Positions 5,342-23,537 of a stretch of DNA of 40,262 bases are shown here, piece by piece. The stretch's first letter is position 1. The number at the start of each line of letters is the position of its first letter. Origin of the DNA: Kordiimonadaceae bacterium (GTDB lineage Bacteria > Pseudomonadota > Alphaproteobacteria > Sphingomonadales > Kordiimonadaceae); NCBI GenBank assembly GCA_016765035.1, contig JAESQS010000273.1, positions 1-40,262 of the forward strand. The letters are read 5' to 3'. The translations under genes and the position numbers were made by a program. A model generated the notes under the pieces. It saw only the letters and a program-made list of their open reading frames with translations. It was not told the DNA's origin and ran no database searches.

Positions 5342-7052
5342 CGTCTCGTACTCCTTTAAAAATAGCGTCACTCAGGGCAACACCTTCGGCATCGGTCAGG
5401 TGCTCAATATCAATACCGTCCTGGTCGAGCCGACATAAAAACAACCACGATATGCGCAGCACCTGGTTAGTATTTATGGCCACACCTAGAGCGCTGTCGA
5501 TGGTCAAGCGCTCTAGGTCGGCATCAATTTCAGTGGCACCGGTAATGCGCCGATGAAAGGCCGTACCATCGCGCAGCTCTATGCGAATATCGCGTCGCCC
5601 AGGGGCTGGCGCACCATCCACCAGGCCAAAGCGGGCATAGTCAATATTGGCGATATCCAGACTCAGCTGCACGTTGCTCATGTCGGCCAGCAAGGTCAAA
5701 TCATCGGCGTGAGTTGGCAGCCAAACAGCCACCAGGCGACCCTCCAGCCCATATAGCAAACTGCGAAATGCCGCCTGCTGAGCACGGCCGTCGAGCAACC
5801 AACGGTGCTGGCGCACTGGGAATGCCCGCCCCGCTGTATCGGTGATTTGTGCAATACCAGTGCCGTTATCTAATGCCAGCTGCAAACGCTGCAGGGTGTG
5901 GCTCAGGTCTTTGCTTTCATTGGGCCGCTCTTCCAATACCGGAAAACCGCGATACATTGTCGCTGGCAGCACCGCGGGGTGATCATTGGCCTCAACGCCA
6001 ATAAAAGTCACCACCAGCTCATCGGCCGTATCACTTATGCGTTTTAATTTTGGCTGCTCAGTTAATCGGGCTGCTTGACCAGGGAAAATCCGCGAACCCT
6101 TCGCCCAGGCACTTTGCAGCTCACGGGCAAGATCAATACCGGTGCCGTCAATCGCCAGCACCTCGGCAACCTCTACAGGCAAGGGCGTTTCACCCTGCAA
6201 AATTACCAGACCACCCACGGTGAACTCGCGGTCGACCGTGTCGCAGTCGATGCGCAGGGCATCAACCAATAAGGGTGCTTGCAGGCCTTGAATTTGGTGC
6301 CACAGGGGCAGTGCCCACACCTGGCCACTCCAGGCGAACAATGCCAGGTCAAGCCGCTGGCGATCGCGCTCCGCCAGCAACATGGTCGCGGTAAATTCAC
6401 GGCGGGGGGACAGGCGCAGCGCGCGGCGTTGTTCTGCCGCCGTTGGGCTTTGCAAAATATCGGTGGCCCAGGCCAAATGCTCTTTAATGCCTTTGTTCCA
6501 GTTTGGCGCAAAACCCCAGGGCACAATCCGGGTACCTGTGACGCGTAAACCGGGCATATTGCCGTTGTCGAACAGCCACTGTAATTGCAGGTCAATGTTG
6601 CTCGGGCCGCTTGTATCAATGCCCAGGTCATAGCTCAGTTCAGCGAGCGCGGGATAAAGCACAGGCGGGTTACTTTGGCCGCTGAGCGTTACACCCGGCT
6701 CCAGCCCGCTAATACTGTCCAGAGTCAGAGGCACAAACCAGGCATTCCACACCGTAATTTGACTGGCTTGGGTTGATGCAACATTGCCTAAATTAAGTCG
6801 CCGTGGGGTGATATGCACGCGGTAGTAAAAGTCATCGGCATAGCTGCGCACTCTAATGCCAGCCACGCTGCGCCTCGTAGCTGAAACAGGCCAGGTGTTT
6901 ACTGTCTCGACATCCGGTGCAGGGCTTTGCTCCAGCGCAGAAGGCGGTGGCCAGCCAACAATGCCGCTAAATAGTTGCAGGTCTGCAGACAGGTGGGGGT
7001 TTACCTGGCCTGCAACGGGCGACTGTACGTGGCTGGCCAGTAAAACCGACAT
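5331..7052 (-). CDS. distal tail protein, B3/D3112-like
   Basis: This 573-aa protein lies just upstream of the BR0599 gene and has beta-rich sequence throughout with no enzymatic motif. In Mu-like siphophages such as D3112 and B3 this slot holds a large virion protein joining tail tube and tip. The C-terminal half (FRSLLYGLEGRLVAVWLPTHADDLTL) resembles that group. The RBS is weak. It overlaps the BR0599 gene by 11 bp. Assignment is by position and general resemblance. Confidence 0.65.
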   Translation of the reverse strand: MSVLLASHVQSPVAGQVNPHLSADLQLFSGIVGWPPPSALEQSPAPDVETVNTWPVSATRRSVAGIRVRSYADDFYYRVHITPRRLNLGNVASTQASQITVWNAWFVPLTLDSISGLEPGVTLSGQSNPPVLYPALAELSYDLGIDTSGPSNIDLQLQWLFDNGNMPGLRVTGTRIVPWGFAPNWNKGIKEHLAWATDILQSPTAAEQRRALRLSPRREFTATMLLAERDRQRLDLALFAWSGQVWALPLWHQIQGLQAPLLVDALRIDCDTVDREFTVGGLVILQGETPLPVEVAEVLAIDGTGIDLARELQSAWAKGSRIFPGQAARLTEQPKLKRISDTADELVVTFIGVEANDHPAVLPATMYRGFPVLEERPNESKDLSHTLQRLQLALDNGTGIAQITDTAGRAFPVRQHRWLLDGRAQQAAFRSLLYGLEGRLVAVWLPTHADDLTLLADMSNVQLSLDIANIDYARFGLVDGAPAPGRRDIRIELRDGTAFHRRITGATEIDADLERLTIDSALGVAINTNQVLRISWLFLCRLDQDGIDIEHLTDAEGVALSDAIFKGVRDDEL

Positions 7053-19233: not shown

Positions 19234-19527
19234 CTATCCCCGCACCTTGCCTATCGATTTCCATTGCGCCTCGCCTATCCATTTCACTTCATAGCCGTCC
19301 TTATACGCATAGTTGATTTTATTTGCCTGATCAGCATCCAGAGCACGCCAACGGGGGCTCCATAAATCTGGTACGTCAGCAATAGTTATCTCGGAGTCTA
19401 TGCCCTCGGCATTACACGTGCCCGCAATAAAAACGCCGTGCTTTTTACAGACCTCTCTCAGATCATCAATGACGGCCTGGTATCGCTGTTCATTGATCTC
19501 TCTTACAAAATCGTCTTCTTTGCTCAT
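19234..19527 (-). CDS. hypothetical accessory protein
   Basis: I do not recognise this 97-aa acidic protein. It has an N-terminal helix (KEDDFVREINEQRYQAVIDDLREVCKKHGVFIAG), a short CNAEGIDSEITI strand, and a Trp-rich C-terminus (DLWSPRWRALDADQ...YEVKWIGEAQWKSIG). It interrupts the Mu order between the F-like and G-like genes and is flanked by 62- and 147-bp gaps, whereas most neighbours overlap. That suggests a later insertion. A role in virion assembly cannot be shown. Confidence 0.6.
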   Translation of the reverse strand: MSKEDDFVREINEQRYQAVIDDLREVCKKHGVFIAGTCNAEGIDSEITIADVPDLWSPRWRALDADQANKINYAYKDGYEVKWIGEAQWKSIGKVRG

Positions 19528-19589: not shown

Positions 19590-20837
19590 TCATTCCTCCC
19601 GCCGGTACAACCTGACACCAATACGCGCATCTTCTAGCACTGACACTTCTGGCGCGAAAGTGGTAATGCCCGACCAGCCGTCAGTACCCCACTCAAAGAC
19701 GGCCATCGTTGGCACATCCTGTCCCGGCAATTCAAACTGCGCGATATAGCGCCTGCGTACCACGGTTTTTTTCTGTTTAAACTGATACTCCATACGCACC
19801 CAGATTTCGTCGGGGTCGAGCAGTGCCTCGGCCAGCACAGACATTAGCGGACCACGGTCGCGCTTGTTGGCTTTCAGCAGGCCACTTCGCCTGTCTAAAA
19901 ACAGGTTTCTACCCACGGCAACAGCCTCGCCGATAACATCGATATGCACCACCGGTTGCTCCAGCGTTGCGCCAAAAGGTTCGAGGAAGGCCTGGGCATA
20001 AGCCTCATCGCTGAGATTATCGGGCAGCAACTTATCGGCACCCAGGCTGCGCGGTGCGGGCAGCGGGTCAACGGGTCGGGTATTGGGCAAGCCGGGGCCG
20101 CCGGTCGCGCCAGTGATGGGCGGATTCGGCAGCTCTGGCGGTATCGCACCCTCTAGCCGCGAGCGCCCGGGGGTATGCTCAAAACCGGGGTCAATGCCTT
20201 TGGGCACGGTGACTTCGCGGGGGCCGTTGAGGCTGCGCTGGCCGATTGTGTGGGTCTCTAGTTCCAGCGGCGGGGCTTTGTCTGGCGCTGTTTTGCCCAG
20301 GGCAGCGAGATCGTCTTCGGTCAAACCACTCAGTGAGCACTGGCAACCCCAGGCATTGATAGGGGTATGGGTTTGCAACCAGGGATCGTCGGCACGCAGT
20401 ATTAAACCGTCCCAGGCGAGGTGTTCAGCCCGTGGGTTTTCAGAGCCGCTGTGGTGGTACTGCCTATACGGCAGGGCATCACCGGCCGCCTCTAGCTGTT
20501 CAAAGCGTCCGGCGTTGTAGCTGCTGAATAGATTAGTTTCGTAAATGGTGCGGCTGCGCCAACTGCGCCCGCCGTTGTAGTCCCAGCCATGGGCGGCAAC
20601 GATGTTGTCAAAGTCTTTGCGGAAGCCTTCCAGCGTTTCACCCTCGGCAATCACCTTTTCAATAGCGCTGCGAAAGTCGGCAACGATGGCATTGCGATTG
20701 GCACCGGCCACGGTGAATGCATAGTCGCGTTCCGCGCCGTAGATGTCCGTCCAGCTATCCGTGGGGATATTGACCTTGCGGCGCAGGAATTCAATTTGTT
20801 CGGCAAATGGCAGGGAGCCGTAGCTGGTGTTTGGCAT
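19590..20837 (-). CDS. Mu F-like minor head protein with C-terminal PBECR2-type nuclease domain
   Basis: I start at ATG 20837 (MPNTSYGS), giving 415 aa, because the same start is preserved in a duplicated relict at 21401. Residues about 70-190 are the Mu F head morphogenesis domain (TNLFSSYNAGRFEQL...YRQYHHSGSENPRAEHLAWDG...HTPINAWGCQCSLSGL). The C-terminal part from about 255 (LLPDNLSDEAYAQAFLEPFG...NLFLDRRSGLLKANKR...LLDPDEIWVRMEYQFKQKKTVVRRRYIAQF) resembles the PBECR2 fold of phage-borne BECR RNases. The first half is needed for head assembly. The second could be delivered with the DNA. Nuclease activity is inferred from the family. Confidence 0.88.
   Translation of the reverse strand: MPNTSYGSLPFAEQIEFLRRKVNIPTDSWTDIYGAERDYAFTVAGANRNAIVADFRSAIEKVIAEGETLEGFRKDFDNIVAAHGWDYNGGRSWRSRTIYETNLFSSYNAGRFEQLEAAGDALPYRQYHHSGSENPRAEHLAWDGLILRADDPWLQTHTPINAWGCQCSLSGLTEDDLAALGKTAPDKAPPLELETHTIGQRSLNGPREVTVPKGIDPGFEHTPGRSRLEGAIPPELPNPPITGATGGPGLPNTRPVDPLPAPRSLGADKLLPDNLSDEAYAQAFLEPFGATLEQPVVHIDVIGEAVAVGRNLFLDRRSGLLKANKRDRGPLMSVLAEALLDPDEIWVRMEYQFKQKKTVVRRRYIAQFELPGQDVPTMAVFEWGTDGWSGITTFAPEVSVLEDARIGVRLYRREE
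20781..20837. repeat. 57-bp duplicated segment, functional copy
   Basis: This is the first 19 codons of the F-like gene. It matches 21345-21401 with two mismatches in 57 bp. The two copies bracket a 507-bp segment with two small genes. Confidence 0.9.
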
Positions 20838-20838
20838 T

Positions 20839-21108
20839 TTATTTTTGCTCGATACCCTGCTGCTCTCTCGCCTGCCAGACCGCACCCAAAACCTCGGCTA
20901 CAATCAAGGCGCGCTGAGAGTAGCGACGATCTTCGCACCGGGGATAATAAAAACAGACTTCATATTTCTGCAGATCATAATCCCACTCGACAGCAAGACC
21001 GCTATAGCCATCACTATTTCTTACGCCCGTATTGACCTTGCATTGCTGTCCACTGAGTGCCTCACGAACCTCCTCTGCCGCTTCTAAAACATCGTTGCAA
21101 ATATTCAT
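20839..21108 (-). CDS. hypothetical protein of inserted cassette
   Basis: This 89-aa acidic protein (AAEEVREALSGQQCKVNTGVRNSDGYSGLAVEWDYDLQKYEVCFYYPRCEDRRYSQRALIVAEVLGAVWQ) has an alpha-beta-beta-alpha appearance and no family I recognise. Its ATG overlaps the stop of the 53-aa gene upstream (ATGA), and its stop is one base from the F-like start. With its partner it fills the segment between the two 57-bp repeats, so the pair entered together. A toxin-antitoxin or modifier role is possible but unsupported. Confidence 0.65.
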   Translation of the reverse strand: MNICNDVLEAAEEVREALSGQQCKVNTGVRNSDGYSGLAVEWDYDLQKYEVCFYYPRCEDRRYSQRALIVAEVLGAVWQAREQQGIEQK

Positions 21109-21266
21109 TTTCTAGCTTCTCGCTTTTTTTTCAGCATTTCACGGATTTGGGGCTTTAACCAAAGCTCTTCTTTTGACGAAACCCATATGCCCCGCATTTC
21201 TTTTTGCCCCTGGTCGGCCCTACGTTTTCGCAGAGCTGCAGACTTTTCTTTGCTTGATAACGGCAT
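21105..21266 (-). CDS. small basic protein, possible ribbon-helix-helix regulator
   Basis: A 53-codon gene reads MPLSSKEKSAALRKRRADQGQKEMRGIWVSS onward, ending with LKPQIREMLKKKREARK. The basic N-terminus, short strand (MRGIWVS) and following helices resemble ribbon-helix-helix proteins of phages. The start ATG at 21266 is preceded by AGGAATAGGAA. It is coupled to the next gene by ATGA. If it binds DNA it may control its own cassette. The fold call is tentative. Confidence 0.55.
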   Translation of the reverse strand: MPLSSKEKSAALRKRRADQGQKEMRGIWVSSKEELWLKPQIREMLKKKREARK

Positions 21267-21314
21267 TTCCTATTCCTGCCAATATTGAAGACGCTCTATT
21301 CTAGCGCTCAATCA

Positions 21315-21320
21315 ATCATA
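21315..21320 (-). promoter_or_regulatory. possible -10 of a cassette promoter
   Basis: The minus strand has TATGAT here, with TTGCGG 16 bp upstream as a poor -35. A perfect palindrome GTTGCGCGCAAC (21326-21337) covers the spacer. It would let the cassette genes at 21266 and 21108 be expressed apart from the late operon. Confidence 0.25.
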
Positions 21321-21344
21321 CCGGAGTTGCGCGCAACCGCAAGG

Positions 21345-21401
21345 GCGCAGGAATTCGATTTGTTCGGCAAATGGCAGTGAGCCGTAGCTGGTGTTTGGCA
21401 T
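21345..21401. repeat. 57-bp duplicated segment, relict copy
   Basis: It matches 20781-20837 with two substitutions. The identity stops abruptly at codon 19 of the F-like frame, which marks the junction of the inserted DNA. Confidence 0.9.
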
Positions 21402-21607
21402 TACTTACACCAGACACTAGAGCGCTGTCTGCCTGTTAAGTCGACCCACTTCAACTGTATTGAGGACGGAGACTCTTTACCCGGGTCAAACCAGACATTA
21501 ACGATTTCAAAATTTCCGGCATGTTTGGCCTCGCACAACGAGGCCTTATCCTCGGATTCGTAAATCGCTTCGCATTTTTCGCATTGATAAGCGCTAATAG
21601 GTTTCAT
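21401..21607 (-). CDS. small Cys-rich protein, probable zinc ribbon
   Basis: This 68-aa protein has C-x2-C (YQCEKCEAIY) near residues 8-11 and further Cys at SLCEAKH and the C-terminus (VWCK), a pattern that could bind zinc. It is coupled to the genes on both sides. It lies in a run of small genes between portal and F-like head gene. Function is unknown. Confidence 0.6.
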   Translation of the reverse strand: MKPISAYQCEKCEAIYESEDKASLCEAKHAGNFEIVNVWFDPGKESPSSIQLKWVDLTGRQRSSVWCK

Positions 21608-21758
21608 AGTGTTCTCGCGTTTCTAGCCTTACATTTCTACCCACAAAGCGCTGGCCCTGTCGTGTGATAAAACCGCCAGGCACAGGCTTTGGCTGCTGCA
21701 CAAGATAGGTAGCTCGGTTGCCGTGTACCACCACCCATTTAAATCGTTTACTAATCAA
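21594..21758 (-). CDS. small basic hypothetical protein
   Basis: A TTG at 21758 with GGAG 7 nt upstream opens a 54-codon frame (ISKRFKWVVVHGNRATYLVQQPKPVPGGFITRQ onward). Its start overlaps the stop of the upstream gene and its stop overlaps the next start. This continuous coupling and the amino acid make-up support a gene. The repeated R-x-T-Y-x-V and F-x-G-R-x-V pattern suggests a small beta barrel. Unknown function. Confidence 0.5.
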   Translation of the reverse strand: MISKRFKWVVVHGNRATYLVQQPKPVPGGFITRQGQRFVGRNVRLETREHYETY

Positions 21759-21933
21759 TTGATTTCTCCTTGCTCGGTGTTACTTTCTTAATCTTTGTAC
21801 ATTCAAAAACAGTGTCGCCAACAAAAAACTTACCCAGCCTTTCGCATTCATCTGCAACGGTGATGTGGGCATGCCGCCAGCCACCGAGCCAACCGATTAG
21901 AAACGCCAACAAGACCCAGAAAAGCAACTTCAC
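21751..21933 (-). CDS. small membrane protein
   Basis: The 60-aa product has one hydrophobic helix at about residues 2-19 (KLLFWVLLAFLIGWLGGW), followed by a short hydrophilic domain with two Cys (ECERL...FECTK). GTG start, with GTGA overlapping the portal stop. It may be an inner membrane protein facing the periplasm. Lysis accessory or accessory gene are both possible; nothing decides it. Confidence 0.55.
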   Translation of the reverse strand: MKLLFWVLLAFLIGWLGGWRHAHITVADECERLGKFFVGDTVFECTKIKKVTPSKEKSID

Positions 21934-23537
21934 CGCAACCTTTCGCTTTCATCGAACACTTCATTGCGCCCCGCCAAATTCGCGGTCGCGAGGCCGTCAC
22001 GCATGGCGGCGGCGTAGTCGTCTAGGGTCATGGCTGGGTACAGCTCTAGCAGGCGATCGCGCAGTTCGTCGAGGCTGCTCACCTGGTGGGCGAGTTCGCG
22101 CACGGCGTTGATCCACTGGTCGATGGGCTGACTGAGGTTGTCGGCGAGCTGGTCGAGCATTTGCTGGGGTGGCTGGGGATCTGCGGTTTTTTGTTTTAAG
22201 GGCCTCAACACTGCGTTCAGTGTTGCCTGCTGTTCGTCGGCAATCGGCAAGGGCTTGGGGGCTGCAGGCGCTGCGGGTGGCATGAGAATATCCTCACCCT
22301 CTTCCGGCTCGGGAATGCCCACTTTCTCCTGTGCCCATTGGCGGCCAATGCGATAGCCCATGGCCACCAGTTTGGGCAGGGCTTCGGCGTGGGCGCTGAG
22401 GTCTTCGGGCTGGCTGACGTCAAACTGATAGCGCGGGCAGCGCCGCCAGTCGGCAGTGAGTCCGTTTAAAATAGCGATGGGGTAAATCAGGTCGCGGCTA
22501 ATGGTGTTGGCCACTTGCCGGGCGTCGGCGTCGCGCAGGTCAATGCGGCATTCGTTATGTACATTGCCCAGGGCGTTGGTGTTGGTGCCCGCACCGCTGT
22601 CGCTGGTGAGGGTGCCGCCCAGTATGGCTTTGCTTTGGGTGCGCTCTGCCCACGAAATCATCGCGTTGTAGGCATCGGGGTCGCCAGTAGTGGCGTTGTG
22701 AAAATCGACTTCCATACCAGCCGGAATAATACCGGCGGCGTTGTGGCCGATTTGTGCCAGCGCGCGCAGCAGAGTCAGCTTTTCGTCATTGCTGGCACCG
22801 CCGGGGTATTTACCCAGACGCATGGGGATGCCGTAAATTTCTAGGAATTCAGCGAGATCACCCACCGAGTAATTTTTAAACAGGTAGGGCCAGACCAGCA
22901 CGCGGAACAGGGCCGAGCGCTCAAGGTAACCGCTTTTGGCTTTGTGCTTGTGCACGATCCAGCCGAAGGGGTTGAGGGGCTCGCCGCCCACGGGGCCACG
23001 CAGACGAAGGTGTTGCTCGGTGGTGTCGCGATAGGTCACGAACCAGCTTTGGGGCCGGTGGGTAATGCTGAGGGGCAGGCGTTCGCCCTGGGTGCGGCTC
23101 CAGCCGCCGAATTCGAGGCAGGCAAAGCCTTTGCCGATGGCGTCGGTAATATCAAACAGCACGTCGTCAAAATCGTCAATGGCGTGCAGTAGTTCGCCCA
23201 GCACGCGGGCGTTGTCTTTTTCTTTCTCGCTGGCATTGGGGGGCGGTACAACTTCACCCGGCAGGCTCAGCAAGGCTCGGCGGCGCTTGCCCATCTCGGC
23301 ATAAACGTGGCCATCTTTTTCTTCGATATCTTCGTACAGCTCAAACTGGGCCTGCATGTTGCCGCGCTCGGCTTCATCGAGAATAGTGGCCAGCTTTGAG
23401 GGCGTTAAACCCCGCGAGGGGTGGCCCTGAAATTCGTGGTGCAGGCCTAAGAGCTTTGCGGTTTGCGGCTCAGCCAGGGTGGCTTTGTCGATTTTCATGG
23501 GCTTACCATCGAGCCCCAATATAGATGTCATCACCAT
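21930..23537 (-). CDS. portal protein, DUF935 (Mu gp29-like)
   Basis: The 535-aa protein matches the DUF935 portal family: GNMQAQFELYEDIEEKDGHVYAEMGKRRRALLSLP near residues 55-90, a YGIPMRLGKYPGGAS segment near 245, and LGGTLTSDSGAGTNTNALGNVH near 310. It forms the dodecameric ring at the head vertex through which DNA enters. The start overlaps the terminase stop by 7 bp, as in Mu. The C-terminal part is the usual flexible helical region. Confidence 0.93.
   Translation of the reverse strand: MVMTSILGLDGKPMKIDKATLAEPQTAKLLGLHHEFQGHPSRGLTPSKLATILDEAERGNMQAQFELYEDIEEKDGHVYAEMGKRRRALLSLPGEVVPPPNASEKEKDNARVLGELLHAIDDFDDVLFDITDAIGKGFACLEFGGWSRTQGERLPLSITHRPQSWFVTYRDTTEQHLRLRGPVGGEPLNPFGWIVHKHKAKSGYLERSALFRVLVWPYLFKNYSVGDLAEFLEIYGIPMRLGKYPGGASNDEKLTLLRALAQIGHNAAGIIPAGMEVDFHNATTGDPDAYNAMISWAERTQSKAILGGTLTSDSGAGTNTNALGNVHNECRIDLRDADARQVANTISRDLIYPIAILNGLTADWRRCPRYQFDVSQPEDLSAHAEALPKLVAMGYRIGRQWAQEKVGIPEPEEGEDILMPPAAPAAPKPLPIADEQQATLNAVLRPLKQKTADPQPPQQMLDQLADNLSQPIDQWINAVRELAHQVSSLDELRDRLLELYPAMTLDDYAAAMRDGLATANLAGRNEVFDESERLR

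Follow-up and report, generated by a model that had tools for sequence, protein, structure and literature searches.

A small gene pair preceding an F-like head gene in a Mu-like phage, flanked by a relict and an intact F start

In a 40,262-nt stretch of a Kordiimonadaceae draft genome (hereafter, the window), two small genes are located between a partial, relict copy of the start of an F-like phage head gene and the complete F gene. On balance, the origin that we favour is that a moron-like pair was placed before F of a B3-like transposable phage by a one-sided illegitimate join of two close relatives, an account that we consider somewhat better than even. The accessory pair is most likely young, with a junction recent enough to be read.

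The duplicated F start and the genes between its copies

A repeat search identified two direct copies of a 59-nt sequence, 97% identical, with a spacing of 564 and 505 bp in between, both on the minus strand: the relict F start (21344..21402, also detected by self-BLAST) and, at 20780..20838, the base preceding the ATG together with nucleotides 1-58 of the intact F gene. This confirms the sequence-only reading, according to which the first 57 bp of F are present twice, with two mismatches, around 507 bp with two small genes; counted as F nucleotides 1-57, the copies occupy 20781-20837 and 21345-21401, with 507 bp between them. The repeat is one base longer at either side, starting 1 nt ahead of the F ATG and ending inside codon 20. 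Chance can be dismissed because, when the 40-kb window was compared with itself (E limit 1e-3, with low-complexity filtering), the pair scored E = 3e-21; BLAST detected no second direct repeat in the window (at least 28 nt, at least 80% identity, spacing below 5 kb). The two mismatches, at F nucleotides 24 and 45, are in third codon positions and both synonymous. Among the 171 possible single changes in the 57 nt, 39 are synonymous, so that the probability of both being synonymous by chance is 0.052. Polarising the two mismatches via relatives gave no result, the codons being too varied.

Past nucleotide 58, the relict and F sequences diverge abruptly, and the sequences preceding the two copies, i.e. 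the end of a 68-aa gene and the end of an 89-aa gene, are unlike each other. The relict ATG overlaps the upstream stop, as the earlier reading had it, sharing the A with the TAA of the 68-aa gene (TAATG). Translation from this ATG yields a 29-codon mini-ORF (21312..21401, minus strand) that consists of 19 relict F codons and 10 cassette codons followed by TGA. The RNA of the relict plus the cassette leader folds no better than shuffled sequences (z = 0.10). A 12-mer at F nucleotides 59-70 (20768-20779), starting exactly at the repeat end, recurs at 21030-21041 inside the 89-aa gene. It is the only direct match of at least 10 nt between the cassette and F beyond the repeat, and its length was reached by 3 of 2000 shuffled cassettes when compared with F nucleotides 59-158 and by 54 of 2000 when compared with all of F beyond nucleotide 58, a post hoc comparison.

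The cassette proper is encoded on the minus strand and starts, between the relict and the first gene, with a non-repeated 77-nt leader (21267..21343). The first open reading frame encodes a basic protein of 53 aa (21105..21266; 17 K/R, 7 D/E) and the second one an acidic protein of 89 aa (20839..21108; 15 D/E, 10 K/R); the two genes overlap by 4 nt, and the start of intact F lies one base on from the stop of the 89-aa gene. Ahead of the 53-aa ATG, AGGAATAGGAA looks, by eye, like a ribosome-binding site. The G+C content of the cassette is 47.7%, compared with 59.0% for F and 59.8% for the portal gene; this difference in composition is in line with the earlier description of an accessory cassette in a tightly packed late operon. 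The leader contains a perfect 12-bp palindrome (21326-21337), the sole exact copy in its own draft genome; some 12-bp palindrome is present in 118 of 5000 shuffled leaders. By our judgement, this palindrome does not match the integron attC core, and the attC reading was dropped. Between 20700 and 22000, a consensus scan for promoters of the sigma-70 type found 0 sites (shuffles average 1.1), and no terminator-like site was found on the minus strand (shuffles average 1.8); no Rfam family reached the gathering score in the window.

Convincing relatives of the 89-aa and 53-aa proteins were found in none of the IMG/VR, phage, plasmid and genome samples searched. IMG/VR was searched by peptide-pattern scans, by which only close relatives are detectable; the tblastn targets were 50,697 phage and 72,556 plasmid records, and genomes were sampled by order and phylum. 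Outside the phage's own genome, the matches were marginal: of 398 genomes, two gave one with the 89-aa protein (E = 0.013 and 0.030) and three with the 53-aa protein (E = 0.0087, 0.013 and 0.040). Marginal matches at two loci, L120 and L128, were rejected as chance, judged from the surrounding open reading frames: from the translations, we take the long frames of L120 to resemble malate dehydrogenase and a diguanylate-cyclase-type gene, and L128 to be a FAD-oxidoreductase-like stretch. The cassette is present once in its own incomplete genome and in none of 97 other genomes, and its proteins are absent from the F loci examined. Neither protein has a match in Pfam (up to E = 1) or PADLOC (up to E = 10), the NCBIfam matches are at chance level, and the PHROG matches are weak (phrog_27594, E = 0.063, and phrog_27887, E = 0.38, for the 89-aa protein; phrog_536, a transcriptional regulator, E = 0.22, for the 53-aa protein). 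Across these four collections, no transposase or recombinase was matched. With regard to a possible toxin-antitoxin pair, the same searches for known toxin and antitoxin families gave nothing beyond these weak or chance-level matches.

The AlphaFold2 model of the 89-aa protein, with an arrangement of helix, three strands and helix, is of low confidence (mean pLDDT 58), and Foldseek searches with it against PDB and BFVD returned nothing at E = 0.001 or better. In VIA, the top hit is T7 Gp1.2, which inhibits dGTPase (Z 7.4, rmsd 2.8, 77 aligned residues, 4% identity), at a Z-score below 8, which can reflect merely a common arrangement; a phage 'inhibitor of dGTPase' is also at rank 43 in BFVD (E = 0.12). 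This predicted likeness is a lead only. AcrIIA4 (PDB rank 9, E = 0.2) was set aside as a likeness of the same model. The 53-aa model is helical (mean pLDDT 72, pTM 0.29). Comparison of the two cassette proteins with PDB chains by phmmer gave a best E of 0.22 for one and no match for the other. The pair might conceivably serve host takeover or defence.

The portal-F junction in the window and in relatives

The intact F-like head gene (19590..20837, minus strand) encodes 415 aa and, by profile matches, combines a Mu F-type domain (Phage_Mu_F, E = 7.9e-13; phrog_220, E = 9.4e-85) with a C-terminal PBECR2 nuclease-like domain (E = 1.3e-28). The C-terminal 130 residues thus make up a toxin-type domain fused to a head protein. 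The full frame and the start of F are preserved despite the cassette, so that, as the sequence-only reading maintained, an intact F is kept alongside the relict. On the minus strand, the gene order is portal, 60-aa, 54-aa, 68-aa, relict F, 77-nt leader, 53-aa, 89-aa and F. The portal gene (21930..23537; Portal_Mu in Pfam) is followed by a gene for a 60-aa membrane-type small protein whose start overlaps the portal stop (21751..21933), a 54-aa open frame (21594..21758) and the 68-aa gene (21401..21607), which encodes four cysteines and whose TAA overlaps the relict ATG. With 47.1% G+C, this block is low like the cassette. In the collections searched, the 68-aa protein has no convincing relatives (DUF7128 is a sub-threshold match, E = 0.12) and the 54-aa protein none at all; neither was found in the F loci examined. 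Relatives of the 60-aa protein are present in five loci (L014, L056, L068, L139 and L147) and in 13 Pseudomonas and Aeromonas phage records. In four of these loci, the relative lies between the small and large terminase genes (L014, 2605-2775; L056, 644-805; L068, 2622-2783; L139, 3189-3350); the terminase genes of the window are 1 nt apart, with no 60-aa gene there. The relative in L147 (5001-5120) lies beside what, from its translation, we take to be a primase gene. The 60-aa gene is a small gene moving between gene junctions, and the neighbours at 21401-21933 are also additions to the portal-F gap. An 18-nt match between the portal end and the 60-aa gene was dismissed as coincidence, the motif being largely kept in relatives of the 60-aa protein located elsewhere. 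On the other side of F, between F and the G-like gene, lies a 97-aa frame (19234-19527, minus strand) with no Pfam match and a chance-level PHROG match (E = 0.093); F may therefore have added genes on both sides.

Using F as bait, we assembled 116 loci (80 of 183 confirmed in IMG/VR, 34 from one genome per species and two phage records), of which 115 have both F and portal readable (L114 is without a portal). Some are one phage present in two collections; 93 are distinct by the first 600 nt of F, including all 22 with an initial gap. Among the matches listed, F overlaps the portal end in 83 of 115 loci, lies within 5 nt in 10 and at least 87 nt away in 22. The gap of L014 is only apparent, since its portal frame is broken and the usual overlap can be seen at the DNA level; the final tally among the matches listed is 94 of 115 with F overlapping or at most 5 nt from the portal gene and 21 of 115 with other DNA in between. 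It follows from the former count that the 68-aa gene is itself an addition, and from the latter that DNA has been inserted repeatedly between portal and F. These 21 gaps (L022, L026-L029, L036, L042, L047, L074, L077-L080, L084, L089, L090, L103, L108 and L116-L118) are 208-767 nt long among the matches listed and contain varied open reading frames, several on the opposite strand; L116-L118 are remote (28-43% identity in F). The insert of L118 contains a frame of 212 aa whose DPPY motif we take to be methyltransferase-like. In the window, the portal-F gap was filled more than once.

By BLAST, none of the 22 other real or apparent gaps among the matches listed contains a copy of the F start: the best match is 20 nt at 85% identity in L116 (E = 0.015), compared with 58 nt at 96.6% in the window (E = 1e-24). 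The F-start duplication is a single case among the matches listed, and the outcome that would speak against the earlier reading, namely, all relatives sharing the arrangement, was not encountered. Outside the 115-locus tally, we considered six remote F loci (L122-L127, 31-52% identity) and loci obtained with the portal as bait, partly on the same contigs. By extrapolation, there is no portal-F gap in L122 and L124, and among the portal-bait loci the portal-F spacing is about 520 nt in L138 and about 40 nt in L142 and L143. In one group of relatives (L056, L060, L068 and L073), the ends of the portal and F genes share a direct repeat of 32 nt with 91-94% identity (5867-5898 and 7159-7189 in L068).

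Judging by the relationships of the flanking proteins, portal/F is also a module boundary. The best match of the window F is in an Alcanivorax phage, L085 (69%), and that phage ranks fourth for G (58%), behind L007-L009; its portal and large terminase are remote from those of the window (35% and 26%), and the window portal and terminase match those of L101 and L139 at 59-63% and 76-77%. The T protein of the window is closest to L101 and L139-type phages. Since the matches of L101 and L007 to the window extend to either side of portal/F, the module boundary does not date the cassette event; it may be old or confined to the lineage of L085.

Origin of the arrangement

Under the favoured account, two closely related phage DNAs with F starts about 3% apart would have met in one cell. 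Homologous exchange would have occurred somewhere within F, and the opposite end would have been joined without extended homology, the resident F, broken past nucleotide 58, becoming attached to DNA upstream of the donor's cassette. The expected product is the 68-aa gene, nucleotides 1-58 of the resident F as the relict, the cassette and the complete donor F. Because the F start survives, head assembly need not suffer, and because relict and intact gene are of one F lineage, the cassette arrived after that module was in place. The pair would presumably be expressed through late-operon read-through and translational coupling, given the RBS-like stretch and the 4-nt overlap, and the relict would be translated at most as the 29-codon mini-ORF. 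With 59-nt direct repeats, slippage or recombination would be likely to remove the cassette and would restore the previous junction exactly. From this layout, we infer two parents, a one-sided illegitimate join, and expression and instability of the pair; any benefit from it is likewise hypothetical. That both mismatches are synonymous mildly favours two functional F alleles over one copy decaying, and yet two mismatches are too few to decide between two alleles and a single duplicated sequence that mutated later. The phage, plasmid, IMG/VR and genome searches yielded neither a donor (cassette and F without the relict) nor an empty site, a cassette-free copy of the exact junction in which F directly follows the 68-aa gene; cassette genes with other flanks were likewise not found in the collections searched, so that the two checks proposed by the earlier reading came back empty.

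That reading had the cassette bringing its own copy of the F start, a claim that goes beyond what the sequence shows, given that an unequal join of two phage genomes and a 59-bp target duplication give the same product. The latter, i.e. insertion at a staggered break with fill-in copying the F start, such that the copies were identical at birth and acquired two later mutations, is the less likely route but deserves consideration, with a geometry that fits: target sequence on either side of an unrelated insert. However, target duplications are usually a few bases, far short of 59 bp, the cassette proteins match no transposase or recombinase in Pfam, PHROG, NCBIfam or PADLOC, cassette relatives were not found elsewhere in the collections searched, and under neutrality both differences would be synonymous with a probability of 0.052. 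Replication slippage, which is common in phages, would alone be sufficient for a tandem duplication in one phage up to F nucleotide 58, the intervening material being later deleted or replaced; we regard this as rather improbable, given that the sequences before the two F copies are unlike, so that this route requires one more event, located precisely at the repeat edge. The draft state of the genome (360 contigs, 76% complete) raises the question of an assembly artefact from two co-existing strains, which is doubtful: the copies differ at two places, hence are not one repeat read twice, and the relict and F part abruptly at nucleotide 58.

Two further readings assign a role to the repeat itself. 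It would be quite surprising if the repeat were a functional element, either a recombination site or a regulatory duplicate, with the pair removable or mobile. There are long direct repeats at both ends, and the leader palindrome is the sole exact copy in its genome, yet shuffled leaders also produce such palindromes at the frequency given above; moreover, among the matches listed, copies of the F start are missing from all 22 other gaps, the cassette has no recombinase match, and the second copy is simply F coding sequence. We would hardly expect, either, that the F start of 59 nt and the cassette, together 564 bp, form a minimal mobile cassette, non-autonomous and targeting the F 5' end. If so, the replacement F start would make insertion harmless, with precise exit via a phage or host recombinase; however, neither a second copy nor a second case was found in the genomes and loci searched.

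Whichever route was taken, the junction before the last event can be reconstructed, as the sequence-only reading proposed, but it is not ancestral: F adjoins the portal gene in 94 of the 115 relatives listed and the 68-aa gene is itself added, so that the junction of the 68-aa stop and the F start represents the state before the last event. Likewise, the record of the entry of a gene pair is indeed well preserved, although it is a single case of an ordinary kind of event.

Relation to known systems and meaning

An SXT/R391 element supplies a new gene start to the gene that it enters, and an intact start remains, as it does at F. The site of insertion is the 5' end of prfC (PMC2791158). The SXT/R391 elements are described as encoding an integrase and as being about 100 kb long (PMC2654960), whereas the present cassette consists of only two small open reading frames without a recombinase match, and the F start is not used by other inserts (0 of 22 gaps with a copy among the matches listed). 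MPMEs of mycobacteriophages are phage-genome inserts of similar size (439 bp vs 505 bp), but they are described as having inverted repeats at their ends and a 6-bp addition, and as inserting at several sites (PMC3029335); no second site of the cassette was found in the genomes and collections searched.

The likeness to morons is closer: the cassette separates two genes that lie side by side in relatives (94 of 115 among the matches listed), shares the gap with three other added genes, and differs in base composition from its large neighbours (47.7% vs 59.0% and 59.8% G+C), with the upstream small genes equally low. As to the third moron feature, a promoter and terminator of its own, the scan of 20700-22000, which covered promoters of the sigma-70 type, gave no site. 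Similarly, the moron-like plasticity regions of Pseudomonas aeruginosa Mu-like phages consist of small genes of accessory type, some low in G+C, that lie between conserved ones; no flanking sequences indicative of a shared recombinase target are reported for them, and how they were acquired is called mysterious (PMC4378225). Compared with the regions covered there, the phage analysed here carries a 59-nt duplication that marks the event. Joining by homology at one end and illegitimately at the other has been proposed for variable segments of bacterial genomes (PMC2884548). Such homology-assisted illegitimate recombination predicts the layout observed at F, although that work concerns DNA entering bacterial chromosomes, unlike the present phage case.

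The entry of single accessory genes into packed phage operons often leaves no flanking signature. In this phage, the junction is readable. It suggests that one side of the crossover was homologous and the other illegitimate, shows by what means the head gene was preserved, and marks the space between portal and F as a place where DNA repeatedly enters Mu-like phages.
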